From Flagellimonas okinawensis (GTDB lineage Bacteria; Bacteroidota; Bacteroidia; Flavobacteriales; Flavobacteriaceae): a stretch of DNA of 64,000 nt. The position numbers and the translations under genes are program-made. Below, one piece after another: positions 1-45,142 of the stretch. Each line of letters starts with the position of its first letter. Position 1 is the first letter of the stretch. The notes beneath the pieces are model-generated. The model was not told the DNA's origin. It saw nothing but the letters and a program-made list of their open reading frames with translations, and did no database searches. The stretch covers positions 1 to 64,000 of the forward strand of contig NZ_JARFVA010000002.1 in the NCBI RefSeq assembly GCF_029194005.1, written 5' to 3'.

Positions 1-486
1 GATGTGATCCTTCCCAAGACAGATACCCCTTCCGCTACGGAAGTGAACGTGCACACCTTCATCGATGCATACCTCGACGAGGTCATGCCCTTGGAGCAAA
101 GGGAGTTCGTGGTCATGAAAATGAACAAGTTCTACGACAAGGTCCTGGCCGATTCCGGAAAGGAAAGCTTGATGGACATAGAGCCCGCGGACATAGAACC
201 TGCGCTGCAGGCCTATCTGAGGAAACGTTCCGATGAGGAGGAAGAGGCACATTCCGAGGCCATCATGAGCTATATGCAGGCCATTATGCAGGGAGGCGAG
301 GCCAGTCTTGACGACGATATCGCGCGCTTCTCCTTTGCCAACGACCTGAGGGACCTGGCCACTTGGGCCTACAAGTCCTCAGAATATGTGGGCGAAGAGG
401 TACTGGCCTATCTGCCCATACCAGGGGAGTACGTCGCCTGTGGCGACCTACAGACCCTCACCGGTGGAAAGGCATGGTCCCTATAG
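1..486 (+). CDS. Gluconate 2-dehydrogenase subunit 3 family protein, 5'-truncated by window edge
   Basis: This is the C-terminal ~160 residues of a gluconate 2-dehydrogenase subunit 3-type protein. The family is the small exported subunit that accompanies a GMC-type (FAD) sugar or polyol dehydrogenase in the periplasm. What is seen: the stretch PKTDTPSATEVNVHTFID near the left edge and the closing segment YLPIPGEYVACGD followed by GGKAWSL, both characteristic of the family. The frame is open to base 1, so the true start and any Tat signal lie outside the window. A GTG at base 4 is internal, not a start. The gene is strikingly GC-rich (about 60% in the bases around 180-240) and prefers CTG for leucine, unlike its neighbours. 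It is followed directly by a strong terminator, so it ends its transcription unit. The catalytic GMC partner would be expected just upstream. Confidence 0.85.
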   Translation, partial: DVILPKTDTPSATEVNVHTFIDAYLDEVMPLEQREFVVMKMNKFYDKVLADSGKESLMDIEPADIEPALQAYLRKRSDEEEEAHSEAIMSYMQAIMQGGEASLDDDIARFSFANDLRDLATWAYKSSEYVGEEVLAYLPIPGEYVACGDLQTLTGGKAWSL

Positions 487-14382: not shown

Positions 14383-15807
14383 ATGCAAAGAAGAAAGTTC
14401 ATCAAAAATGCCGCTGCTGCCTCAGCCGCATTTTCCATTGTTCCCAGCCACGTATTGGGCAAAAACCATATTGCGCCCAGCGATACATTGTATGTAGCCG
14501 GTTTTGGCGTTGGTGGAAGGGGAAACAATGTAATAAATGGCCTAAACGATACGGGAAGGGTAAAATTTGTGGCCTTTTGTGATGTGGATGATCGCAGGGC
14601 CCAACAAACCTATGAACAATTTCCGGATGTAAAACGTTATAAGGACTTTAGAAAAGTTTTTGATGCACATTTAAACGATATAGATGCCATAGCCGTCGCG
14701 ACCCCGGACCATACACACGCAACGATTTCCCTGCCTTTTATGCGAGAAAAAAAGCATGCCTATGTGGAAAAACCATTGACCCACAATATTTATGAGGCAC
14801 GATTGATGACCCAGGTCGCAAGGGAAAAAGGAATCGTGACACAAATGGGCAACCAAGGTGCTTCCAGTGATGGTAGCCGTATTGCACGCGAATGGGTCGA
14901 ATCCGGAATCATTGGTAAAGTACATACCATAGATTGTTGGACCAACCGCCCAGTTTGGCCACAAGGCGTTCCTATGCCCACAAAAAAAGACCGTATACCG
15001 AGAGAATTGGATTGGGACCTATGGTTGGGGCCTGCAAAAATGAGAGATTACAACGACGCTTACCTTCCTTTTAAATGGAGGGGCTTTTGGGATTTTGGTA
15101 CCGGCGCCTTAGGTGATATGGGATGTCATATCATGGAAACCCCGTTCAGTGTTCTGGACCTTGGTTATCCAAAAGAAGCTGAGGCAAGCTGCACTACTGT
15201 TTGGGTAGATGATTTTGTGGAAGCGGATTACAGTCATTCTTGTCCTCCCTCGTCCAAAATACATTTGAAGTTCGAGCATGAAGAGCATGGAGACATTGCA
15301 CTTAATTGGTACGATGGCGGTTTAAAACCAGACCTTCCGGACGAACTTAAGGATGATGAGTCCATCGGAGACACGGGCGGTGGTACCGTAATGTATGGAG
15401 AAAAAGGAATTTTGGTATGTGATACCTATTCCCAAAATGCAAGATTGTTGCCATCAGAAATGATGGGCCTCTATAAATCACCAGCCCCCAAATACGACAG
15501 GGTTCCTGGAGGGATAGAGGGACATTTCGCCAACTTTGTAGATGGATGCCAGAACGGAACTCCGACTTCGTCCAACTTTGAAAAAGCAGGAAGACTAACT
15601 GAAACAGTACTTATGGGGAACTTGGCCGTGAAAGCTTATCAGTATAAGGAATTGAAAGAAGGGAAAAAGGTCGGCGATTGGGCACCCTATGCATTTCCTG
15701 GAAGAAGAAAACTGCTTTGGGACGGTGACCATATGAAAATTACCAACTATGACAAAGCGAACGATTGGGTGACCAGAGACTACCGTGAAGGTTGGGAACT
15801 GAAATAA
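14383..15807 (+). CDS. Gfo/Idh/MocA family oxidoreductase with Tat signal
   Basis: A 474-residue NAD(P)-dependent oxidoreductase predicted to act in the periplasm. A twin-arginine signal (QRRKFIKN, then an alanine-rich helix ending around SHVLG) is followed by the Rossmann motif GFGVGGRGN and the family signature EKPLTHN with K130. Proteins of this kind carry the cofactor folded before Tat export and are linked to oxidation or reduction of sugar substrates, including C3 oxidation of glycosides; the actual substrate is unknown. It is monocistronic, ending in a near-perfect terminator. A distinct paralogue lies at 29037-30458. Confidence 0.92.
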   Translation: MQRRKFIKNAAAASAAFSIVPSHVLGKNHIAPSDTLYVAGFGVGGRGNNVINGLNDTGRVKFVAFCDVDDRRAQQTYEQFPDVKRYKDFRKVFDAHLNDIDAIAVATPDHTHATISLPFMREKKHAYVEKPLTHNIYEARLMTQVAREKGIVTQMGNQGASSDGSRIAREWVESGIIGKVHTIDCWTNRPVWPQGVPMPTKKDRIPRELDWDLWLGPAKMRDYNDAYLPFKWRGFWDFGTGALGDMGCHIMETPFSVLDLGYPKEAEASCTTVWVDDFVEADYSHSCPPSSKIHLKFEHEEHGDIALNWYDGGLKPDLPDELKDDESIGDTGGGTVMYGEKGILVCDTYSQNARLLPSEMMGLYKSPAPKYDRVPGGIEGHFANFVDGCQNGTPTSSNFEKAGRLTETVLMGNLAVKAYQYKELKEGKKVGDWAPYAFPGRRKLLWDGDHMKITNYDKANDWVTRDYREGWELK

Positions 15808-21793: not shown

Positions 21794-24700
21794 TTACATA
21801 CGAATGGCACCAATGCCATTTTCCCAAAGTTTGGTATTAAAATTAGGTATTTCTGAATTCATCAAGGTCTCTGCTCTTTGTTTTAATCCAATCCATTGAG
21901 CATCCAGTTCAGCCTTTCTATCTTTTGATGGTTTATTGATTTGGGGCAGTGCGCTATTGCTATGGTTCATCACAAACATATATTCCGCAGTAAACTTATT
22001 GGGAAAGTTCTCCACGTCGTCATATGCCTGGGATTTTCTTTGGACCATTTCCCCATCCCATTCCTTTAGTTTATCCAACAACGCTTGACCTTGTTTTTTA
22101 AGATCCTCATCTTTTAAATCCTTTAGGATAGATTCCAACTGTCCCTGAACCTCTTTTAACTTGTTCACCTTGTTGTGCATGTCGGTGAGCTTGGTTTCAA
22201 AATCCATCATAATCGCATGGTGTTCTTCAAAACGTTCTTGGGTCATATCAGTGTTTGGAGTAGGTACAATGACACCTTGTGTTGCCACCTCTTTATCCCC
22301 TGTCTTGATCTTAATAGTATAGTAGCCAGGTGGCACCTTATGGCCTGTAAAATCTGCCTCAATATACACACCGGGTATACCAGGTACTATAGGTGTTTTT
22401 AGGTCCCAAACAAAACGGTTCAACCCTTTGTCCATACCCAAAACTGGTTTTGGAGGAGCTCCACCTCCATTGTGCGGAATATAGCTTTCATTTTTTTTGG
22501 AACTAAAACTACGTACAGCCCTGCCCTTACTATCCGTAATTTCCATGGTTACTTCTGTGGAATCCATTTGTTCTGGTAGGTTGTAATAAATGACCATACC
22601 ATTGGCGGGATTTACCCCTTCGAACGGATTGGTACCGGTAACAATTTTGGAATTGCTGTTGAGCTGACTCCCCCAATATCCGTGAATGGCTTCCTCTGGC
22701 TTATAAACTTTCAATGCATCCGTTTTTCCCTTATACTGTGCAAGAGTGGTGATGTTGTCCAATATCCAAAAACTCCTTCCTGATGTTGCCACTATCATAT
22801 CTCCCTGGTGCACCTTTAGGTCAGTGATGGGAGTTTTTGGCAAATTCAATTGTAGGGGTTCCCATTTTTTGCCATCGTTCCACGATACATAAAGTCCTTT
22901 CTCCGTTCCAGCGTAGAGCAGTCCTTTTTGGTCTTGGTCTTCACGTACTACCCGGGTAAAAGCCCCATAAGGTATTCCATCATTAATGTTAGTCCAGCTT
23001 TTCCCATAATCGGTACTCTTGTAAATTCCAGGAGTATAATCGTTGAATTTATATCTAGTGGTGGCAATGTAAAAAGTGCCTGGATCGTGTGGAGATACTT
23101 CAATGGCGTTCACCAAACATTCCTTTAGGCCTTTTGGGGTAATTTCTTCCCAGGATGTTCCTCCATTTTTTGTGATGTATACCAAACCATCATCACTACC
23201 GGTAATCAAAACTCCTGCCTCATGTGGTGATTCAATCAGGTAGGCCAAGGTTCCATAATTCTCCGCACCTACAGCCTCGTTGGTATAAGGTCCGCCACCT
23301 TTCCCTTGCAATTCATCTTGGTCACGCGTAAGGTCCGGGGATATTTCTTCCCATGTTACGCCATTATCCCTTGTTCGTAGTACCAATTGAGCTCCATGGT
23401 AAAAGGTTCCTGGCTCATGTTTGGACCAGATTATGGGTGCATTCCAATTGTACAGGTATTTCATGTCGCGGGCATCGCGTCCCAAATATTGAATGGGTGC
23501 AGCCATAACGTTACTGGACATTTTGGATTGCATATCCAACAATTCAATAGTCCCCAAATAACTACCGCCCATAACATATTGCGGATCATCAGGGTCAAAG
23601 CCCAAAAATGCGCTTTCTCCTCCAGCGGAATAATGCCAATCTTCCCTTCCTATGCTCCATCGGCCTAAGGATAGGCTCGCAATTTTAACAGAAGTATTGT
23701 CCTGTTGGCCTCCGTAAATGTTATAAGGAAAAAGGTTATCGGTATTGATGCGATAAAACTGTGCGGTTGGCATATTGTCCTGTAATGTCCAGGTTTCCCC
23801 ATAGTCATAGGAAATAGTGGCGCCCCCATCATCGGCCAAAAGAATGTTGTTGGAATTGTCCGGATTGATCCAAAGATCATGCGTATCTCCATGGGGTACG
23901 GAAATGGTCTCCCAGGATTTACCCCCATCTTCCGAACGGAACATGGAAGCACTGAGAACGTATACCGTATCCTCATCATTGGGGTCTGCAAACACTTCGA
24001 TGTAGTACCATGCACGCTGTACCAATCGGTTGTCACCGCTCACCATATGCCAGCTTTCACCGGCATCATTGGAAACGAAGAGACCTCCCTTATCTTGATT
24101 GGAATCACTTTCAACAACCGCATAAACCTTATCCGAATTTGCGGCACTTACCGCGATGGCCATTTTACCTTTTTCCTCTGGAAGACCTTTGGTCATCTCT
24201 TTCCAAGTATCTCCGCCATCGGTGGATTTATATAGACCGCTTCCCGGTCCACCACTAATTACTTTATTGGGTTTACGCTGATGTTCCCACATGGCCGCGT
24301 AAAGCACCAAAGGGTTGTTTGCATCCATGGAAAGTTCAGCAGCTCCGGTTCCTTCATTTACATATAGGATCTTCTCCCATGTTTTTCCGCCATCCATGGA
24401 ACGGTACACGCCTCTTTCTTGGTTTGGAGCGTACAATGCTCCCTGTGCGGCCACATAAACAATGTCCGGATTTGTTGGATGGACAATGATACGTGAAATA
24501 TGCTGTGTTTTCTCGAGGCCCAGCTTGATCCATGTTTTTCCTGCATCGTTGGATTTGTACATACCATCACCGTAAGATGTCATTACCCCTCTCGGAGCGT
24601 GCTCACCCATACCACAGTATACAATATTTGGACTTGATGGTGAAACAGTTACGGCTCCCACCGAACCCATCTCAAAAAAACCGTCCGAGATATTCTCCCA

Positions 24701-24919
24701 TTGTCCTCCGGCATTGGTGGTTTTCCAAAGCCCTCCTCCAGTGGTTCCCATATAATAGGTAAGTGGGTCGCCCACAACACCGCTTGCCGTCACGGAACGT
24801 CCACCCCTATACGGGCCAATGTTCCTAAACTTCATCGGGTTAAAATAATCGTTGGCTGTTTGTGCAAAGGTGAGTGTTACAAAAAATACACTCAACAAAA
24901 AAAGAAATCCTTTTTTCAT
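21794..24919 (-). CDS. VPS10/BNR-repeat beta-propeller secreted protein (copy 1)
   Basis: A 1041-residue exported protein with a signal peptide (to TFAQ near residue 20). The N-terminal ~700 residues carry many BNR/sortilin-type repeats ([36 protein letters not shown]) that fold as one or two beta-propellers. The C-terminal ~300 residues contain a PPGYYTIKI beta-sandwich and a coiled-coil-like helical part. The opening block [12 protein letters not shown] is shared with its neighbour. Databases often call these glycosyl hydrolases, but no catalytic residues of that kind are evident; binding or peptidase-accessory roles are equally possible. No T9SS tail is present. Confidence 0.85.
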
Positions 24920-24995: not shown

Positions 24996-27900
24996 TTACT
25001 CTTCGATGCTCAAATAATCGAGTTTGAGTTGATTGAATTCTTGGTTAAAGTCCGAAATTTCCTTGTCCACCAAGGTGTCAAAAGCTTCCAATTGCTCTAT
25101 AATTTGGGCCCCGATCTCGTTTTTCACAGCGATATCCTGATCGGTTGGAGGGAAATCATCAATAGATACCAAACTGTTCAAGTGAGCCAACTTATTGGTC
25201 AATTTGATGGGGAAGTTCAATGGATCTTGATTACTTCTGTTCTGTGTCTGGTACAATTCCTTTTCAATGGAACCAAACTCCTCTTTCATCTTTTTGGCCT
25301 TTTCTACCAAAGCTTTGGTTGCATCTTCATCTTTGTACTTTTTAATGAACTCGTCCAACTTGCCGTTAATGGCCCTGATTTTTTTGATGGATTGGTGAGC
25401 TCTATCCACCGTCTCGTTCACCTCGGTGATAAAGTCGTACTGTTTTTGCATATCAGCGATGGTCACCTCTGCTCTTGGGTCGGGAAGTATGGTAAAGTTT
25501 TCCGTCTGTGTTTCACCATTTACGTTCAATGTCACCTTATATGTTCCGGGCACGGCTTTAGGCCCGTCCAAATTGGCCCACCATAAGATCATTCCTTCCA
25601 ATCTTTCGGCTCCTTTGCCACGGGTATCCCAAACGTAGGTGTTACCACCCTTTTTGGCCTCGAGTTTTTTGCCTCTTTCCTTGGAATAGGTGCTATAGGT
25701 TTCCAAAGTATCACCGTTCATTTTTGAATAGGTCAATGAAATACTGTCCTTTTCCGAGAAATCCTTAAGGTAAAAGTGAGTGATTACACCATTGGGCAGG
25801 TTTTCGCCTTCTGTTTTTGAAGGCCTTCTCGCCGCCCTGCCTTTAGTTCGGTAGCTATCCCTTGGCTTATACAGGATGGCATCGGCAGACTTTTTTGCAT
25901 CATTTAATTGATGTAAAACGGTAAGGTCATCTATCACCCACAAGCTCCTTCCCTGTGTGGCCACGATCAAATTATCATCCTTAATGGTTAGATCAGTGAT
26001 CGGAACAATGGGCAGGTTCATTTGAAACTTTTCCCATTTTGCACCATCATTAAATGAAATGTACATACCTGTTTCGGTTCCGGCATACAAAAGTCCTTTT
26101 CTTTTCGGATCTTCCCTGACCACACGTGTAAAATGCTCATCCTCTATTCCACTGGTGATCAAAGACCAAGATTCCCCGTAATCGGTGGTTTTATAAATAT
26201 ATGGGGTAAAATCACCCAACTTATAACGTGTTGCTGCAACATAACATGTCCCTTCATCAAAAGCTGAAGGCTCAATACTATTGATCATGTTCCACTCTGG
26301 CATGCTTGGAGGGGTTACATTTTCCCATGTCTGTCCTCCGTCCTTGGTTACGTGAATTAAACCATCATCACTACCTACCCAAAGCAAACCTTCTTTTAAT
26401 GGACTTTCGTTTGCGGCAAAAATGGTACAATAATATTCTACACTGGTGTTATCCTGTGTAATGGGCCCTCCACTGGAGACCAATTTTGTTGGGTCGTTCC
26501 TGGTCAGGTCATCGCTCAACAGTTCCCAACTCTGACCCTCATTGGTGGTCATATGAACATGATTGGAGAAAGTGTACAGTTTATTGGGATCGTGCTTACT
26601 GAACATAATCGGGAAGTTCCACTGAAAACGGTATTTCATTCCCTCTGCTCCATGTCCCATCGGGTTATCCGGCCAAACGTTGACCGCCCTAGCTGTATTT
26701 CTGGCATGGTTCACGCGGGTCAACAATCCACCATAGCTACCGCCATAAACGATATCATCATTCTTTGGGTCAACGGCAATATGGGCGGATTCACCACCCG
26801 CTGTTTCTTCCCAGTCATCCTCACCTATGGAACCATCGTCACTTCGGTAATTTATCCTTAGTGTAGAGTTGTCTTGCTGCGCAACATAAATTCTATATGG
26901 AAAAGCATTGTCCGTAGTGACTCTATAAAATTGTGCGGTTGGCTGATTGTTCATGGTACTCCAGGTTTCTCCACCATCGTAGCTAACTTGTGCTCCACCA
27001 TCATCGGCCATGACCATTCTGTTGGAATCTTCTGGAGCTATCCACAGATCATGATGATCGCCGTGAGGGGCGTTATTGGATTCAAAAGTTTTTCCTCCGT
27101 CGGTACTCTTGTGGTAACGCACGTTTAAAACATATACTACATTTTCATCATTGGTATCGGCGTATACCCTTGTGTAGTACCAAGCACGCTGCCTTAAACT
27201 TCTATCACTATTGATCAGGGACCATGTATTCCCGCCATCTTCCGAACGGTACAGACCGCCCTTTTCCTTGTTCTCCACCATTGCCCAGACCCTATTGCTG
27301 TTCTGGGGTGAAACGGCCACACCAATAATACCTAGGGTATCGGTTGCAAAACCATCGTTCTTCGAAATTTCCGTCCAAGTTTCACCACTATCGGTACTCT
27401 TCCACAGTGCAGACCCTTCGCCCCCACTGTTAAGACTATACGGTGTACGCTCAATTCTCCAAGTGGAGGCGTATAAAATTCTAGGGTTGTTCGGGTCAAA
27501 GGTAAGATCCACTGCCCCGGCCATGTCATTGGCATAAAGGACTTTTTTCCAAGTCTCTCCTCCATCCGTACTTTTATAAACTCCTCTTTCGGTAGTTGGT
27601 TTGTACAAGTTGCCCATTACTGCAGCATACACGATATTATGATCCTTCGGGTGAATTCTCATTCGGGAAATATGTCGGCTTTTGTCCAAGCCCAACGATT
27701 TCCATGTTTTACCTGCATCCTCGGTCTTCCAAATACCGTATCCCGAAGAAACATTACCTCGAACGGTCTGCTCTCCTCCACCAACATATATTACATTGTG
27801 ATCGCTCTGGGCCACTTCAACGGCACCTATACTCCCACCGAAAAAACCATCGGAAATATTATCCCATGTTATGCCACCATCCATAGTTTTCCAAACACCA

Positions 27901-28130
27901 CCTCCCGTGGCCCCGAAATAATAAAGATTAGGTTCGCCAGGAACGCCAGCAACGGTGCCGGAGCGACCTCCTCGGAAAGGACCAATCAATCGGTACTCCA
28001 AACTGGAATAAAGTTCTTCTGGATATTCTGGTGCGCTTTGTTTTTTATTCCTGCGCTGGGAATGCATGGGGGTAATAAACAATGTTGCGGTAAGCAAGAG
28101 CATACCCATCTTGAAAAAGCAAGTCTTCAT
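24996..28130 (-). CDS. VPS10/BNR-repeat beta-propeller secreted protein (copy 2)
   Basis: A 1044-residue paralogue of the downstream gene, with a signal peptide (to about residue 25, MHSQ) and then a basic stretch RRNKKQ. The same architecture is seen: opening block YRLIGPFRGGRSGT, repeated GVWKTMDGGITW / GIWKTEDAGKTW / GVYKSTDGGETW units, a beta-sandwich (PGTYKVTLNV) near 850 and a helical C-terminus. The two copies align along their whole length but have diverged strongly. A terminator between them indicates separate transcription. The upstream intergenic gap of 107 bases is shared with the divergent DUF1080 gene. Confidence 0.85.
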   Translation of the reverse strand: MKTCFFKMGMLLLTATLFITPMHSQRRNKKQSAPEYPEELYSSLEYRLIGPFRGGRSGTVAGVPGEPNLYYFGATGGGVWKTMDGGITWDNISDGFFGGSIGAVEVAQSDHNVIYVGGGEQTVRGNVSSGYGIWKTEDAGKTWKSLGLDKSRHISRMRIHPKDHNIVYAAVMGNLYKPTTERGVYKSTDGGETWKKVLYANDMAGAVDLTFDPNNPRILYASTWRIERTPYSLNSGGEGSALWKSTDSGETWTEISKNDGFATDTLGIIGVAVSPQNSNRVWAMVENKEKGGLYRSEDGGNTWSLINSDRSLRQRAWYYTRVYADTNDENVVYVLNVRYHKSTDGGKTFESNNAPHGDHHDLWIAPEDSNRMVMADDGGAQVSYDGGETWSTMNNQPTAQFYRVTTDNAFPYRIYVAQQDNSTLRINYRSDDGSIGEDDWEETAGGESAHIAVDPKNDDIVYGGSYGGLLTRVNHARNTARAVNVWPDNPMGHGAEGMKYRFQWNFPIMFSKHDPNKLYTFSNHVHMTTNEGQSWELLSDDLTRNDPTKLVSSGGPITQDNTSVEYYCTIFAANESPLKEGLLWVGSDDGLIHVTKDGGQTWENVTPPSMPEWNMINSIEPSAFDEGTCYVAATRYKLGDFTPYIYKTTDYGESWSLITSGIEDEHFTRVVREDPKRKGLLYAGTETGMYISFNDGAKWEKFQMNLPIVPITDLTIKDDNLIVATQGRSLWVIDDLTVLHQLNDAKKSADAILYKPRDSYRTKGRAARRPSKTEGENLPNGVITHFYLKDFSEKDSISLTYSKMNGDTLETYSTYSKERGKKLEAKKGGNTYVWDTRGKGAERLEGMILWWANLDGPKAVPGTYKVTLNVNGETQTENFTILPDPRAEVTIADMQKQYDFITEVNETVDRAHQSIKKIRAINGKLDEFIKKYKDEDATKALVEKAKKMKEEFGSIEKELYQTQNRSNQDPLNFPIKLTNKLAHLNSLVSIDDFPPTDQDIAVKNEIGAQIIEQLEAFDTLVDKEISDFNQEFNQLKLDYLSIEE

Positions 28131-28237
28131 TTTTAAAGTGTTGAGTTAGTCAGCCTTAAAAGTAGTGAAAATGGCGCAAAAAAAGTTATCCAATATTTTG
28201 TACTTTAACCAAGCATATAAAACTCAAAAATCAAACC

Positions 28238-29026
28238 ATGCTCAAATTTCTTAAGCTCGCGATTTTAATTCTCATCCTTGGAGCTTGCAAAGATCAATCA
28301 AACAAAAAAGAAGAAACAACAACTTCCGAGCCCGAAGTAAAACAATCCGAATGGACCTATCTTTTTGATGGCACCAGTCTTGAGGGGTGGCGTGGTTACA
28401 ATATGGATTCCCTCCCACCAGGATGGACCATTAAGGACAGTATACTCACCTTTGATACCGAACTGGGTCTTGAACAGGATTATAGTGGAGGAAAGGACAT
28501 TATCTATGGGGCCGAAGAGTTCGATAACTTTGAGCTCTATTTGGAATGGAAAATTCCCGAAGGAGCCAATAGTGGTATTTTTTACCATGTAAAGGAAGGG
28601 TATGACGGTCCACCCGAAGTAGCTCCGGAATATCAGATCATCGATGATGAAAACTATGCCAACATCCACGATTTGGTCGGCTACAATTCCCAATTCGGGG
28701 CCGAACATCCCGAACTGCTACAAGATTGGCAAAAAACCGGGGCGGATTACGCCATGCACACTGCGGATGAATCACAAAAACAACTGAACCCTGCTGGCGA
28801 ATGGAATTCCTCTAAAATTATTTTCACATCCGAAAAAGTAGAGCATTGGCTCAATGGCAAAAAATTGTTGGAATTTGTGCCTTGGTCCACTGAATGGAAT
28901 ACAAAAAAAGCCTCGGGTAAATGGGACAATGCTCCCGATTACGGAAAATACAAATCAGGTTACATTGCCTTGCAAGATCATGCAAGTCCTATTTGGTTCA
29001 GAAACATAAAAATTAAAAAACTATAA
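28238..29026 (+). CDS. DUF1080 (3-keto-disaccharide hydrolase-type) lipoprotein
   Basis: A 262-residue lipoprotein: the lipobox LGAC gives a lipidated cysteine at about 17, followed by an acidic linker and one DUF1080 concanavalin-like domain (WTYLFDGTSLEGWRG, EWKIPEGANSGIFYHV, YIALQDHASPIWFRNIKI). DUF1080 proteins from Bacteroidota have been shown to act on 3-keto-glycosides, cleaving the glycosidic bond after another enzyme oxidises C3. Specific activity here is inference. It is the first gene of a tight operon (10-base gap) with a Gfo/Idh/MocA oxidoreductase, the very pairing expected for that pathway. Confidence 0.88.
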   Translation: MLKFLKLAILILILGACKDQSNKKEETTTSEPEVKQSEWTYLFDGTSLEGWRGYNMDSLPPGWTIKDSILTFDTELGLEQDYSGGKDIIYGAEEFDNFELYLEWKIPEGANSGIFYHVKEGYDGPPEVAPEYQIIDDENYANIHDLVGYNSQFGAEHPELLQDWQKTGADYAMHTADESQKQLNPAGEWNSSKIIFTSEKVEHWLNGKKLLEFVPWSTEWNTKKASGKWDNAPDYGKYKSGYIALQDHASPIWFRNIKIKKL

Positions 29027-29036
29027 CCTCCAGACC

Positions 29037-30458
29037 ATGAACAAAAGAGAATTCATCAAGAAAAGTAGTGTTGGGGCACTCGGTATTATGCTCGCTCCTT
29101 CGATTTTAAAGGCAGGATTTCCAAAAGACAAGCTTAGAACCGCCCATATCGGGGTCGGTAATATGGGAATGGAGGATTTAAAGGCAGTTTCATCACACGG
29201 AGCGGTGGAAGTAGTGGCTCTCTGTGATGTAGATGCCCTGAACCTTTCCGCGGCGCACAAAATGCATCCCGGAGCGCGGATATTCTTTGATTACCGTGCC
29301 ATGTTGGAGGATATGGGAGATGAAATCGATGCTGTGATCGTTTCAACACCGGACCACACCCACGCACCAGCTTCTTTGATGGCCATGCACATGGATAAGC
29401 CGGTATACTGCCAAAAACCACTGACCCACTATGTATCGGAATCCAGGGAGATGAAAAAACTGGCCGCAGAAAAAGGATTGGTTACCCAAATGGGTATTCA
29501 GGTACACTCGTTTTACGATTATAAATTGGCCACACTCCTTATACAATCCGGAATTATTGGTAAAGTGCATACCGTTCATGCATGGTCCCCTAAAAACTGG
29601 GGTTATGATGGACCACTGCCAGAGGGCGAAGACCCTGTTCCTGACCAATTGGATTGGAACCTTTGGTTGGGCACCTCGAAAAAACGACCATTTAAAAAAG
29701 ACATGTACCACCCTGGCAATTGGAGAAAGTTAATGGATTATGGTTGTGGTACCTTGGGCGATATGGGAGTCCATATTTTCGATACTCCCTATAATGCCTT
29801 GGAATTGGATGTACCCAGAACCATAATGACCGAATGCCGACCATCGAATGGTTTCGGTTTTCCTGAAAACAATACAGTTACCTATGAGTTCCCGGGAACT
29901 AAATACACAGGAAAATCCCTAAAATGGATTTGGTACGACGGCCCTGGAGCACCAGAGATGCACGAAGACCTTTTGTTGCCGGGCATGGAAATGAACGCCA
30001 AAAAAGCAGACAAGAAAAATGATGGAAATAGTATTTCCTTGGATGCCGGAGTAGCGGCTGAAAACGAATTGCCTGAACAAGGCGCAATGTTCGTTGGTGA
30101 AAAAGGACGCTTACTTTTGCCCCACTTTATGCAATTGCCAAAGAAGATTCGAAGAGGAAAATATGTGGATATTTCCAAAGAAATCGCCAAGGTTTCCGAA
30201 GAGCATAACCTAGGGGAGCCTATCCGAAATTACGCAACGGAAGGACCTAAGCACTATCACCAATTTGTGGATGCCTGTTTGGGAAAAGATACCACTACCG
30301 CTCCATTTGATTATGCGGCCAGATTGACTGAAACCATTCTATTGGGCACCATTGCAGGTCGTTTCCCGGGCGAAACATTACATTGGGATGCAGAAACGGC
30401 AAGGTTCCAAGAGGAGAAAGCAAATAAATACCTGTCCGGCAATTACAGGGATTTTTAG
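29037..30458 (+). CDS. Gfo/Idh/MocA family oxidoreductase (exported, paralogue 2)
   Basis: A 473-residue NAD(P)-binding oxidoreductase. Its N-terminus (NKREFIKKSSVGALGIML) is a Tat-like signal with KR in place of RR, so export is likely but not certain. The Rossmann segment is GVGNMGMED, and the signature QKPLTHY contains K127. The C-terminal domain carries GTLGDMGVHIFDTPY. The preceding DUF1080 gene suggests it oxidises (or reduces) C3 of a glycoside in the periplasm. It shares family and length with the gene at 14383 but sits in an operon rather than alone. The DinB gene follows after 12 bases. Confidence 0.9.
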   Translation: MNKREFIKKSSVGALGIMLAPSILKAGFPKDKLRTAHIGVGNMGMEDLKAVSSHGAVEVVALCDVDALNLSAAHKMHPGARIFFDYRAMLEDMGDEIDAVIVSTPDHTHAPASLMAMHMDKPVYCQKPLTHYVSESREMKKLAAEKGLVTQMGIQVHSFYDYKLATLLIQSGIIGKVHTVHAWSPKNWGYDGPLPEGEDPVPDQLDWNLWLGTSKKRPFKKDMYHPGNWRKLMDYGCGTLGDMGVHIFDTPYNALELDVPRTIMTECRPSNGFGFPENNTVTYEFPGTKYTGKSLKWIWYDGPGAPEMHEDLLLPGMEMNAKKADKKNDGNSISLDAGVAAENELPEQGAMFVGEKGRLLLPHFMQLPKKIRRGKYVDISKEIAKVSEEHNLGEPIRNYATEGPKHYHQFVDACLGKDTTTAPFDYAARLTETILLGTIAGRFPGETLHWDAETARFQEEKANKYLSGNYRDF

Positions 30459-30470
30459 CACCTAGATTTT

Positions 30471-30977
30471 ATGTCTTCTGAACAAGAATATTGGTTGAGC
30501 GGCCCCATACCTGATGTACCTGCATTATTGCAGCCAGCGGCACATGCGCTGCTACAGTCGGTACGGGAAATCAAAAAATATGTTTCCGACTTTCCAGAAG
30601 ACAAACTCTGGGAGAAACCATATGGCAGAGCTTCGGCAGGATTCCATCTTAGGCACATTACCGGGGTTCTGGACCGTATGCTCAGCTATGCCGAAAAGAA
30701 GGCATTGACAGCGGAACAGTTTAATTTTTTGAAGAATGAAGGCAATGGTGAGAACGCACCCTCTTCTGAAAAACTGATACATGATTTTGAAGAAAAAGTG
30801 AATGAGGCCTTGGAGTATTTTAAAAACACCCCCGAATCTATTTTAACCGAAGAACGTTTTGTGGGCCGTAAAAAACTTCCATCAACAGTGATAGGATTAC
30901 TGTTTCATGCTGCAGAGCATAGCCAAAGGCATGTTGGGCAATTGTTGGTAACAGTAAGTGTTTTAAAAAATCGATAG
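30471..30977 (+). CDS. DinB family four-helix-bundle protein
   Basis: A 168-residue DinB/YfiT-type protein. Candidate metal-binding histidines are H59 and H62 (AGFHLRHITG) and H146, H150 and H154 (FHAAEHSQRHVGQL), the triad region of the family. DinB-fold proteins are putative metal-dependent hydrolases or thiol transferases (bacillithiol transferases among them). The substrate is unknown. It lies third in the DUF1080 operon, 12 bases after the oxidoreductase and 5 bases before the P1 peptidase gene. Confidence 0.88.
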   Translation: MSSEQEYWLSGPIPDVPALLQPAAHALLQSVREIKKYVSDFPEDKLWEKPYGRASAGFHLRHITGVLDRMLSYAEKKALTAEQFNFLKNEGNGENAPSSEKLIHDFEEKVNEALEYFKNTPESILTEERFVGRKKLPSTVIGLLFHAAEHSQRHVGQLLVTVSVLKNR

Positions 30978-30982
30978 GAAGA

Positions 30983-32113
30983 ATGGACAAACGGATCCAA
31001 CGTTGTTTTTTGTTGTTTTACATATTCCCAGTGGTAATGCTTGCACAAAATAGACTTAGGGACCATGGTGTTGAAATTGGGGTATTACATCCAGGCACCT
31101 TGAATGCCATCACAGACGTACCCGGGGTAAAAGTCGGTCACTATACATTGAACAAAGGAGCAGATATCCGTACCGGGGTCACTGCAATTATACCACATTC
31201 GGGTAACCTTTTTCAAGATAAGGTTCCAGCAGCCATCTATGTGGGCAATGGGTTTGGAAAGCTTGCAGGATATACGCAGGTAAAGGAGTTGGGCAATCTC
31301 GAAACCCCGATTATTCTGACCAACACTTTGAGTGTCCCAACAGCAATGAATGCCCTTATCAGTTACACCCTCAATCAGCCTGAAAACGAAAATGTACGTT
31401 CCGTAAATGCAGTGGTCGGCGAAACCAATGATGGTTATCTCAATGATATCCGGGGTAGACATATCACTGAAGAGGATGTGCTTAAAGCAATCAAGAATGC
31501 TGAAACCGGACCAGTAAAGGAAGGTAGCGTTGGAGCCGGAACAGGAACTATTTGCTTTGGATTCAAGGGTGGTATTGGCACTTCTTCCAGAGTGCTTCCC
31601 AAAAAGTCTGGAGGTTATACCGTTGGGGTTTTGGTACAGACCAACTTTGGAGGGGTTTTGCAAATTGCAGGTGTAGAGGTTGGTAAAAAACTGGGACATT
31701 ATTCCGATAGTTTTAAATATTCTCCAGATGGTTCCTGTATGATGGTAGTGATCACCAATGCCCCATTGGACTCCAGAAATTTGGAGCGTTTGGCCAAAAG
31801 GGCGATGTTGGGCCTTTCTAGAACGGGCGGAATTGCCAGTAACGGTAGTGGTGATTATGTAATTGCGGTTTCCACAGCTGAGGAATGTAGAATTCCGTAT
31901 GAAAGTGAGAAAACCATTCAAAATGTACCTAGTTTACGGAATGAAGCAATGACCCCACTCTTTTTGGCTACTATTGAAGCCACTGAGGAAGCAATTCTTA
32001 ACTCCCTATTTGCAGGTGAGACCATGATCGGGAGGGATGGTCACAAGATCGAAGCGCTTCCAAAAACAAGAGTGTTGGATATGTTAAGATCTAGCGGAGC
32101 CATCAAGCAGTAA
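30983..32113 (+). CDS. P1 family (DmpA/BapA-like) aminopeptidase, exported
   Basis: A 376-residue member of peptidase family P1, whose members mature by self-cleavage and hydrolyse N-terminal residues of D-amino-acid or beta-peptides. A signal peptide is present (to LAQ near 22). The fold signatures include DVPGVKVGHYT, TNTLSVPTAMNALISY and GSVGAGTGTICFGFKGGIGT. Autoproteolysis in the family occurs before a Ser/Thr just after GGIG; here that residue is T200, so the N-terminal nucleophile would be threonine rather than the serine of DmpA (inference). It ends the operon begun by the DUF1080 gene. Confidence 0.87.
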   Translation: MDKRIQRCFLLFYIFPVVMLAQNRLRDHGVEIGVLHPGTLNAITDVPGVKVGHYTLNKGADIRTGVTAIIPHSGNLFQDKVPAAIYVGNGFGKLAGYTQVKELGNLETPIILTNTLSVPTAMNALISYTLNQPENENVRSVNAVVGETNDGYLNDIRGRHITEEDVLKAIKNAETGPVKEGSVGAGTGTICFGFKGGIGTSSRVLPKKSGGYTVGVLVQTNFGGVLQIAGVEVGKKLGHYSDSFKYSPDGSCMMVVITNAPLDSRNLERLAKRAMLGLSRTGGIASNGSGDYVIAVSTAEECRIPYESEKTIQNVPSLRNEAMTPLFLATIEATEEAILNSLFAGETMIGRDGHKIEALPKTRVLDMLRSSGAIKQ

Positions 32114-42621: not shown

Positions 42622-43477
42622 ATATATAATAACATATTGTTTGCTATTGGTGCTAAGTATTCCAACAAACATTTATGCCCAACAAATCACGTGTTCTCCA
42701 GAAGACAAAACACTTTTTGAGGTTAAAATAGCCGATTTGGAACATACTAAAGGTACCAGCTTGGGCGATACAATCGCCTTGGTAGGGCAATCCTTCCTTG
42801 GGACTCCATATGTGGAAAAAACCCTAGAAGTAGGTGATACAGAAACCTTAGTGGTTAATTTCGGCGGATTGGATTGTACCACTTTTGTGGAAAACGTAAT
42901 GGCTTTTAGCCTGATGCTGCAAAACCAGCAAAAAGACTTTGAAGAATTCACCGAGAATCTTGAGACCGTTCGGTACAGAAATGGTGATTTAGACGGTTAT
43001 CCATCCCGCTTACATTACTTCACGGAATGGATTAGAAACAACGAAAAAAAGGGATTGGTAAAAGACATCACTGCCGAACTTGGCGGGGTGGAATTGGAAA
43101 AACCCATCAATTTTATGGGCACGCACCGCAACCTTTATCCTTTTTTGGCCAGCGATGAAAACTTTGAGGCCATGTTGACCGTGGAAAAACAAATTGCGAA
43201 AGAAAAATTATGCTATCTACCTAAAGATCAAATTGAAAGTAAGGAGCACCTGATTAAATCCGGTGATGTTCTTGCTTTGGCCACTTCCATAAAAGGCTTG
43301 GATGTCACCCATACGGGCATTGCCATTCATCAACCTGATGGCAGGTTACATTTGTTACATGCCTCCAGTAAAAATGGTGAGGTGGAAATATCGGAATTGC
43401 CCTTGGCGGATTACCTTAAAAACATCAAAAGCAATATTGGGATTATTGTCGCTAGACCAACCCTACTTTCGCTTTAA
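42596..43477 (+). CDS. DUF1460 family cysteine amidase, exported
   Basis: A 293-residue exported protein of the DUF1460 family, thought to be N-acetylmuramoyl-L-alanine amidases acting on cell-wall fragments. A signal peptide ending near IYAQ precedes the domain. The presumed nucleophile is C94 in GLDCTTFVEN, and the histidine is H238 in DVTHTGIAIH, an NlpC/P60-like dyad. The start is a GTG at 42596, 26 bases inside the preceding lipoprotein gene. Its 3' end overlaps the convergent ThuA gene by 15 bases. Confidence 0.85.
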   Translation: MKHYSLNTKYIITYCLLLVLSIPTNIYAQQITCSPEDKTLFEVKIADLEHTKGTSLGDTIALVGQSFLGTPYVEKTLEVGDTETLVVNFGGLDCTTFVENVMAFSLMLQNQQKDFEEFTENLETVRYRNGDLDGYPSRLHYFTEWIRNNEKKGLVKDITAELGGVELEKPINFMGTHRNLYPFLASDENFEAMLTVEKQIAKEKLCYLPKDQIESKEHLIKSGDVLALATSIKGLDVTHTGIAIHQPDGRLHLLHASSKNGEVEISELPLADYLKNIKSNIGIIVARPTLLSL

Positions 43478-44227
43478 ACACCACTCAACAGCACCTAAAA
43501 GATGTTGCCGGAACATAGGTTCATCGTATGCTTCCTTGGTGTGCCCACCACCAGTATAAAAGGCTCTTCCGCCATCATACTCATGATACCAGGCTATGGG
43601 GTGATTGGACCCGTTGGTTCCTCCTTCATAGCTGCTCTCATCCAAATTCAACAGAACGGTTACTTCGCGATTTAAGTTCTTATAGTTGTACCATTCATCT
43701 GATCTTACCCAAGAGTCGTTCAGGTGTTCCGTGGACGGATGCGATTTGTCTATTACAGCGATGGTTGCTTCACGCACGTTAGGGTCGTTTGGATGGGAGT
43801 CAAAATAACCTCCTACCAATTCCCCATACCAAGGCCAATCATATTCTGTATCACATGCAGAGTGGATTCCCAAAAAACTTCCTCCTTTCTTAATGTATCC
43901 TTCAAAAGCTTTTTGTTGTGCATTGTCCAACACATCCAAAGTCGTATTCAAAAACACAACCAATTTGTAGTTGTTCAGATTCTGTGGGGTAAAGTCCTCC
44001 CCCGATTCCGTTTGCAATGCAATAAAACCAGTTTGCCTACCCAATTCCCTTAAAGTTTGCACTCCCTTTTCTATGGATTTATGCCTCCAGCCCTTGGTTT
44101 TGGTGAATACCAGAACCAATTCCGGCATTTTTTGTGCTTCTGTCTCTGTTGTAGGCTCATCCTGTGCCGAAATTTGAATGACAAAACAGAGTGCAATTAG
44201 GGATAGTACAAAAGATTTCATAGTCAT
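43463..44227 (-). CDS. ThuA domain protein, exported
   Basis: A 254-residue exported ThuA (class I glutamine amidotransferase-like fold) protein. A signal peptide ends near ISAQD. The domain shows LVFTKTKGWRHKSIEKG, FLGIHSACDTEYDWPW and RAFYTGGGHTKEAY, typical of the family. ThuA proteins accompany trehalose and sugar utilisation and have been associated with 3-keto-sugar metabolism; activity here is unproven. It is encoded 4 bases after an AraC-family regulator on the same strand. Confidence 0.85.
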   Translation of the reverse strand: MTMKSFVLSLIALCFVIQISAQDEPTTETEAQKMPELVLVFTKTKGWRHKSIEKGVQTLRELGRQTGFIALQTESGEDFTPQNLNNYKLVVFLNTTLDVLDNAQQKAFEGYIKKGGSFLGIHSACDTEYDWPWYGELVGGYFDSHPNDPNVREATIAVIDKSHPSTEHLNDSWVRSDEWYNYKNLNREVTVLLNLDESSYEGGTNGSNHPIAWYHEYDGGRAFYTGGGHTKEAYDEPMFRQHLLGAVEWCLKRK

Positions 44228-44231
44228 GGTT

Positions 44232-45110
44232 TTAGACGTTTGAAGTTAAATATTTTTTAGGGGTGGTACCGAATTTCTTTTTAAACGAAGCTATAAAATG
44301 ACTGGCGGTACTGTAACCAACCTTTAACCCGACCTCATTGACATTGTGCTTTCCGGTTTCCAACATTTTGCGGGCATATTCCATTTTGTAATCGAACAAA
44401 AATCCGAATACGGAATCCCCATAGATCTGTTTAAATCCTTCCTTCAGTTTTTTAAGGCTTAATCCAACTTCCTGGGATAGCTCTGCCAAAGTAGGTGGCT
44501 CGGCCATCCGGGATATCATTATTTCTTTAGCCATACGAATCCGACGTACATTGTCCTCATCGGCCAAATAAGGGCATTGTTCCAGGTCGGCATCTTCCGT
44601 TTTATTGAAATAAAGGGAAATCAGTTCATAGACCTTCCCTTTTAGATATAGTTTTTTGATGGATGGATGCAAGTTGTAGTTCATCAACTGACTCAAAACA
44701 ACAGCGGTTGCCGGCGAAACCATTTCCTGGGAATAGTATTTCTTCTCCTTGTTCTCTTCACTTAAGAATGGAATATAGTCTGCTTCATCCGAAAACAGCG
44801 AATGGAACTTCCTGATGGTCATCACCACCGAAAGCAACCATGACCCTGGTGAAACTACCAAATCGAGCGGTAAATCCTTTTGGGTGTTATAAAGCAACAG
44901 GGAATTTTCCTCATTTACCTCCAAATAGTAGTTTCCCTCATTAAAATTGAACTTTGACTTGCCCTTTAAACAGAAATGAAACTGGATATAGGAACTGTCG
45001 ATATCCCTTTCGATAAGCGTTGGTTCTTTGGTGTCGTTTTGTATTTTAAGGATATAAATCCCGTCTTCGACCAAAATTTCGTCATAAGAACCTCTAGCGA
45101 TATTTTTCAT
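44232..45110 (-). CDS. AraC-family transcriptional regulator
   Basis: A 292-residue regulator. The C-terminal AraC double helix-turn-helix (~195-290; PPTLAELSQEVGLSLKKLKEGF and VGYSTASHFIASFKKKFGTTPKKY, each shown in part) is preceded by an N-terminal cupin-like effector domain (~10-150). The ATG at 45110 is used because an upstream in-frame TTG adds only four residues. It is divergent from hemA, with a dyad and both promoters between the two, and lies 4 bases upstream of ThuA. Control of hemA or ThuA is inference. Confidence 0.88.
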   Translation of the reverse strand: MKNIARGSYDEILVEDGIYILKIQNDTKEPTLIERDIDSSYIQFHFCLKGKSKFNFNEGNYYLEVNEENSLLLYNTQKDLPLDLVVSPGSWLLSVVMTIRKFHSLFSDEADYIPFLSEENKEKKYYSQEMVSPATAVVLSQLMNYNLHPSIKKLYLKGKVYELISLYFNKTEDADLEQCPYLADEDNVRRIRMAKEIMISRMAEPPTLAELSQEVGLSLKKLKEGFKQIYGDSVFGFLFDYKMEYARKMLETGKHNVNEVGLKVGYSTASHFIASFKKKFGTTPKKYLTSNV

Positions 45111-45142
45111 ATTGATTTTCAACCTGATTTTGCTTTTAAATT

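Follow-up and report, generated by a model that had tools for sequence, protein, structure and literature searches.

A conserved DUF1080-Gfo gene pair of Flagellimonas okinawensis, predicted to cleave glycosides by way of 3-keto intermediates

In Bacteroides thetaiotaomicron and Alistipes, glycosides are broken down by enzymes that oxidize C3 of a sugar, eliminate the leaving group and rehydrate the product, and reduce the resulting 3-keto-sugar, a route described only recently beside that of conventional glycosidases. Comparable eliminases, namely the Agrobacterium 3-keto-O-glycoside eliminase AtOGE and C-glycoside eliminases such as PuCGE, belong to protein families different from DUF1080. 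Here we set beside these systems a pair of adjacent genes, encoding a DUF1080 lipoprotein and an exported Gfo/Idh/MocA oxidoreductase (hereafter the Gfo), which lies in a 64-kb stretch at the start of contig C7 of Flagellimonas okinawensis (the window; the genome measures 4.02 Mb). In B. thetaiotaomicron, growth on trehalose, leucrose and palatinose depends on BT2158, a periplasmic glycoside 3-dehydrogenase (PMC11300592), BT2157, which has a DUF1080 domain, has been named a 3-ketotrehalose hydrolase (PMC9007349), and conversion of glucosinolates in vitro requires BT2158 together with either BT2156 or BT2157 (review PMC12385236).

The window pair resembles the BT2157/BT2158 and Alistipes AL2/AL3 sets in combining the same two protein families, both with N-termini of the export type, with fold and key residues in common, and these sets provide its best or near-best structural matches. 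In contrast to the BT2156-2159 operon, it consists of two genes, lacking both BT2156, an isomerase-type protein, and the disaccharide 3-dehydrogenase BT2159. In its predicted chemistry the pair also resembles the Caulobacter route of lactose use by LacABC with a DUF1080 protein, in which periplasmic C3 oxidation precedes a proposed DUF1080 cleavage (PMC9007349), and the AtOGE and PuCGE systems, in which C3 oxidation is followed by beta-elimination (PMC10628242); where the Caulobacter route relies on the GMC-type LacA, the pair has a dehydrogenase of its own that belongs to the NAD-dependent Gfo type.

We read the pair as a two-enzyme, non-Koshland periplasmic glycosidase unit, in which the Gfo performs C3 oxidation and the DUF1080 protein performs cleavage, and assign this reading a probability of about 0.72. 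The Gfo would take a small glycoside and oxidize C3 of its non-reducing-end sugar, the DUF1080 protein would eliminate the leaving group and then rehydrate, and the same Gfo (or else a second Gfo in the window or enzymes of a nearby LacA/LacC locus) would reduce the 3-keto-sugar, returning the hydride, for a net outcome of hydrolysis without loss of reducing power. The substrates are probably di- or oligosaccharides or plant or algal glycosides, and the pair probably extends a known class of oxidative glycoside cleavers without introducing a mechanism of its own. A full-text search of one literature library returned nothing on DUF1080 together with Muricauda, nor on '3-keto-disaccharide hydrolase' together with Flavobacteriaceae. 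The pair thus described would add a clean, conserved two-gene case to oxidative, non-hydrolytic glycoside breakdown, in environmental rather than gut bacteria, and as a minimal pair it lends itself to asking if a single NAD-bound dehydrogenase serves for both oxidation and reduction.

The lipoprotein matches PF06439 (DUF1080, or 3-keto-disaccharide hydrolase) along the whole model (positions 1-187 of 187), its score exceeding the curated cut-off of 26.8 bits (Table 1), and carries at its N-terminus a lipobox-like LGAC, the cysteine of which is invariant in all 36 aligned partners (residue invariance was assessed in alignments of 36 DUF1080/Gfo pairs, which we chose from the 65 loci with the pair described below). 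A profile search against the PDB ranked 3u1x first, followed by 8rr2, 3osd and 8tda, and in a single-sequence search 4jqt and 3nmb ranked between these. The closest of them, 3u1x, carries no named function; 3osd is titled BT2157, 9fbe and 8rr2 are titled '3-keto-glycoside eliminase/hydratase', and 8tda is titled '3-Keto-2-hydroxy-glucal-hydratase BT2'. The AlphaFold model of the protein (mean pLDDT 82) matches the fold of 3u1x, 3nmb, 9fbe, 3h3l, 8rr2 and 8tda. Three motifs are invariant in 36/36 pairs, PEYQ (P130, E131, Y132, Q133), DD (D136, D137) and QDH (Q246, D247, H248), and H248 aligns with the QDH histidine of 8rr2, 3osd and 8tda. Going by its numbering, this residue may correspond to H275 of the B. 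thetaiotaomicron enzyme, whose H275N variant has been called hydration-deficient (PMC13273386). Sequence and model together point to a predicted 3-keto-glycoside eliminase/hydratase.

The Gfo matches PF01408 (62.7 bits), taken as its Rossmann domain, and PF19051 (42.6 bits), and its two top-ranking structures, by sequence as well as by fold, are those titled 'Glucoside-3-dehydrogenase AL3' from Alistipes (8tdf and the trehalose-bound 8tdh). These two were found by the fold search at E values of 6e-25 and 2e-24, followed by a glucuronide-3-dehydrogenase at 1.3e-16. K127 (of a K127-P128 motif), D242 and H246 are invariant across the 36 pairs, and we take them to be the KP motif and the catalytic Asp and His of this family. 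On sequence and modeled fold, the protein is a predicted NAD-dependent glycoside 3-dehydrogenase. The same searches bear on the idea that the Gfo is by itself a redox-neutral, NAD-dependent GH109-type glycosidase and the DUF1080 protein a mere accessory sugar-binding protein. GH109 enzymes share the Gfo fold, with 6t2b (GH109 with GalNAc and NAD+) at rank 47 of the fold search and 2ixa among the profile-search matches; AL3, however, scores 186 bits versus 37 for 2ixa and 28 for 6t2b, scores on which we rejected a GH109 identity of the Gfo, and the DUF1080 protein matches eliminase/hydratases and keeps its motifs unchanged in 36/36 pairs. We regard this idea as most improbable.

The two genes form a genuine unit, and a conserved one. 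A scan of a genome collection confirmed at least 525 relatives of the Gfo, from which we kept the best 80 named loci, the closest part of the set; the first twelve listed, from Allomuricauda/Flagellimonas/Muricauda records (Flavobacteriaceae), are 91-95% identical to it in protein sequence. A DUF1080 gene lies on the same strand at most 150 bases upstream of the Gfo, our measure of adjacency, in 65 of the 80 loci, and since there are just 8 PF06439 matches in the whole genome, this adjacency is beyond chance. Likewise, in a sample of 28 congener loci around the Gfo, DUF1080 is the next upstream match in 27, and no DUF1080 match was found in the remaining one (L081). A second copy of the pair occurs in one relative (L085), and when 20 window genes were searched for there, only DUF1080 and the Gfo were found. 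The distances of the two proteins are also correlated (0.51 over the 36 pairs, a value not attained in any of 2000 permutations), which lends weak support because common descent alone can give such a value. Three loci (L143, L152 and L172) have a tandem DUF1080-DUF1080-Gfo arrangement, in which the second DUF1080 scores 87-112 bits and the first 250-281 bits against a six-sequence profile.

The subfamily of the Gfo is patchy, and usually, not always, accompanied by its DUF1080 partner: its profile was matched at E < 1e-100 in 14 of 395 sampled genomes of the phylum, and over its whole length in 4 of those 14, including the genome of the window. A tentative extension of the two-enzyme reading, which we hold possible at best, is that the pair forms a minimal, self-sufficient mobile module of a lipoprotein and an NAD-keeping dehydrogenase that cycles hydride from substrate to product, that the Gfo represents a distinct 3-dehydrogenase subfamily, and that its substrate is unlike that of BT2158 (for example, a marine glycoside), with the module spread among Flavobacteriaceae and into records that carry the labels Chitinophagaceae and Sphingobacteriales.

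Several observations weigh against the two-enzyme reading. The Gfo scores 298 bits (276 bits in a six-frame search) against the BT_2158_fam equivalog model NF058561, whose curated cut-off is 750 bits; since the score is below the cut-off, we file the protein as a relative and not as a BT2158 equivalog, which leaves its exact activity and substrate at the level of prediction. No protein of this genome reaches the cut-off, the best being the Gfo at 14383 (478-483 bits), first among the genome's 10 matches at E < 1e-10, nor did any of 14 control genomes contain a protein reaching it, Bacteroides ihuae included. Set against the BT2157/BT2158 and AL2/AL3 sets, the pair is also distant in sequence, with identities in the fold alignments of just 27% for the Gfo to AL3 (8tdf/8tdh) and 32% for the DUF1080 protein to 8tda/8rr2. 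No sequence alignment to AL3 is obtained for Gfo residues ~311-408, and the AlphaFold model of the Gfo is of moderate confidence (pLDDT 73). The N-terminus of the Gfo, MNKREFIKKSS, has a KR rather than an RR twin motif, as do most of its relatives (KR in 72/80, RR in 6/80 and neither in 2/80, typed by a simple pattern); the second Gfo begins with MQRRKF, an RR motif. In favour of the reading, on the other hand, a TatC gene is present in the genome, and the Gfo would be exported folded with its NAD, probably by the Tat route. The 15 of 80 loci in which the Gfo has no DUF1080 gene within 150 bases upstream belong, by record title, to Parapedobacter (4), Sphingobacterium (4), Croceivirga (3) and others (4). 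They come from 14 genomes, all of which encode some DUF1080 protein (E < 1e-15); a close pair-type DUF1080 was found in 3 (at least 467 bits, the next best being 244) and not found in the other 11, genome completeness not being stated. A further point against it is that PMC11501099 reports no growth defect on raffinose-family sugars after deletion of BT2157 or BT2158.

The adjacency asserted in the initial annotation, a DUF1080 lipoprotein and an exported Gfo separated by 10 bases, is borne out by the open reading frames (ORFs) and Pfam, and its proposal of 3-keto glycoside cleavage is likely right, supported by the families, the invariant residues and the conserved unit, while the C3 chemistry, the exchange between partners and the substrate are what we infer. 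It further placed a second Gfo, a gluconate-dehydrogenase-type subunit and a ThuA protein of the same theme elsewhere in the window. All three are real genes (Table 1); the second Gfo does share the theme, and the subunit fits it even better than proposed, being the tail of lacC, in a region that leads into a fuller 3-keto locus in two relatives. The ThuA protein may share it, to judge by its family name.

Table 1. Features in and around the DUF1080-Gfo pair (window coordinates)
Feature	Position	Strand	Remarks
DUF1080 (PF06439) lipoprotein, 262 aa	28238-29026	+	predicted 3-keto-glycoside eliminase/hydratase; Pfam 166 bits
Exported Gfo/Idh/MocA oxidoreductase, 473 aa	29037-30458	+	predicted NAD-dependent glycoside 3-dehydrogenase; PF01408, PF19051
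DinB-superfamily protein	30471-30977	+	PF12867 DinB_2 35.5 bits; co-directional, dispensable neighbour
S58/P1-family peptidase	30983-32113	+	PF03576 Peptidase_S58 409 bits; dispensable neighbour
Divergent intergenic region, 107 bases	28131-28237	.	between BNR-repeat gene and pair; presumed promoter region
Sortilin-Vps10/BNR repeat proteins (two, ~1040 aa)	24996-28130; 21794-24919	-	divergent from pair
Second exported Gfo, RR motif, nearer BT_2158 family	14383-15807	+	BT_2158_fam 483 bits
3' part of lacC (Gluconate_2-dh3 subunit, LacA/LacC-type sugar dehydrogenase)	1-486	+	PF13618 80 bits; cut by contig end
ThuA protein	43463-44227	-	PF06283 260 bits; adjoins AraC-type regulator gene 44232-45122

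The window starts inside lacC, and the ends of contigs C8 and C3 share 99.8% identity with its first 509 bases; as a whole these two ends are 85% alike over 2.4 kb. The start of contig C14 carries the same lacC, and the genome has at least two lacC copies placed after lacA genes and identical to each other over 801 bases. The left edge of the window is an assembly break at this near-identical repeat, and on sequence alone either C8 or C3 could precede the window. In two relatives (G017 and G018), the window genes that follow lacC adjoin lacC, lacA and then the set known from the end of C8, a fuller 3-keto locus with two DUF1080 genes, two xylose-isomerase-like TIM barrels, a Nuc_H_symport transporter, a Gfo and a DinB gene. 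This fuller set lies ~26-40 kb from the pair, with the second Gfo between them, and the same join may hold in the strain of the window itself. The oxidative route thus appears layered in this genome, which has, besides its 8 DUF1080 matches, 16 Gfo-family (PF01408) matches, 14 of them over the cut-off, and a LacA/LacC locus that is next door in the two relatives. At the locus of the pair itself, no complete operon of the BT2156-2159 type was found, the downstream neighbours being DinB and S58.

This setting suits an explanation in which the pair is not self-contained but an auxiliary of a Lac-type locus, the Gfo recycling, mainly through reduction (or exchange), the 3-keto-sugars produced by the LacA/LacC membrane dehydrogenase, and the DUF1080 protein cleaving 3-keto-glycosides made by LacA. 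LacA and LacC adjoin the region in G017 and G018, PMC9007349 describes LacABC-type dehydrogenases in the neighbourhood of DUF1080 genes across diverse bacteria, and the Gfo has no adjacent DUF1080 in 15/80 loci. However, the structure closest to the Gfo bears the title of a glucoside 3-dehydrogenase and contains bound trehalose, and no lacA or lacC was recognised by eye in the 40 largest neighbour clusters of the 80 loci, where no profile search was made. We consider the explanation unlikely.

Other settings of the pair fit carbohydrate breakdown, and none is constant. In 8 of the 80 loci (L153, L154, L155, L160, L161, L167, L171 and L143), from Zobellia, Euzebyella, Pricia, Pseudozobellia, Pareuzebyella and a record titled Cytophaga sp. 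FL35, the pair has an MFS transporter upstream and an aldo/keto reductase downstream, all on the same strand. Pfam confirmed both families in L153 and L154, and the reductase also in L143. This company supports a carbohydrate role for the pair, though it leaves our probabilities as they were, and the neighbouring reductase is a candidate for reduction of the 3-keto-sugar. The second copy of the pair in L085 lies near SusD, a GSDH-cytochrome protein (glucose/sorbosone dehydrogenase with a cytochrome c domain), an FAA hydrolase, a DHDPS-like gene and another Gfo, surroundings that suggest a sugar-breakdown locus. They could also suggest sugar-acid breakdown and, with it, action of the pair elsewhere than at C3 of a glycoside; the two proteins might, for instance, be an inositol or sugar-acid dehydrogenase and its dehydratase partner. 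The Gfo belongs to a very broad superfamily, and its lower profile matches here include inositol dehydrogenases; its best matches by both sequence and fold are nevertheless 3-dehydrogenases, by a wide margin, and we judge such action very unlikely.

A search for SusCD genes, suggested by the initial annotation, gave a divided answer: SusD (PF07980) has 14 matches in the genome and none within the window, and in relatives it was confirmed near the pair or a lone Gfo at L085, L134 and L163, with a SusC-like cluster, assigned by eye, in 7/80 loci. SusCD genes are thus occasional, not constant, neighbours.

The four genes DUF1080, Gfo, DinB and S58 follow one another on the + strand, separated by 10, 12 and 5 bases according to the ORF coordinates. 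DinB and S58, named as companions of the pair in the initial annotation, were rejected as functional partners, since they accompany the pair at just one of its genomic locations: DinB occurs at 16/28 congener and 17/80 named loci and S58 at 18/28 and 28/80, and neither was found at 8 loci where the pair lies elsewhere in the genome (L085 and L090-L096; the contig of L096 stops 483 bases past the Gfo). The N-terminus of the S58 peptidase is hydrophobic and signal-like by eye. DinB-superfamily genes are present in both 3-keto loci of the genome, one in the window and one (L055, 13510-13953) in the fuller locus of contig C8, and a homologue of the latter is at that place in two relatives, so DinB proteins may be loosely linked to 3-keto loci.

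Upstream of the pair, a sigma-70-like match (9/12) lies on the + strand at 28111-28139, with total matches not above those in shuffled sequence. The Bacteroidota -33/-7 promoter pattern had no match in the divergent intergenic region, and nothing in the promoter and terminator scans exceeded shuffles. On the far side of this region, the BNR protein at 24996-28130 scores 161 bits against a cut-off of 175 for the F510_1955 glycosylhydrolase family, and the Sortilin-Vps10/BNR family occurs near the Gfo in 37 of the 80 named loci.

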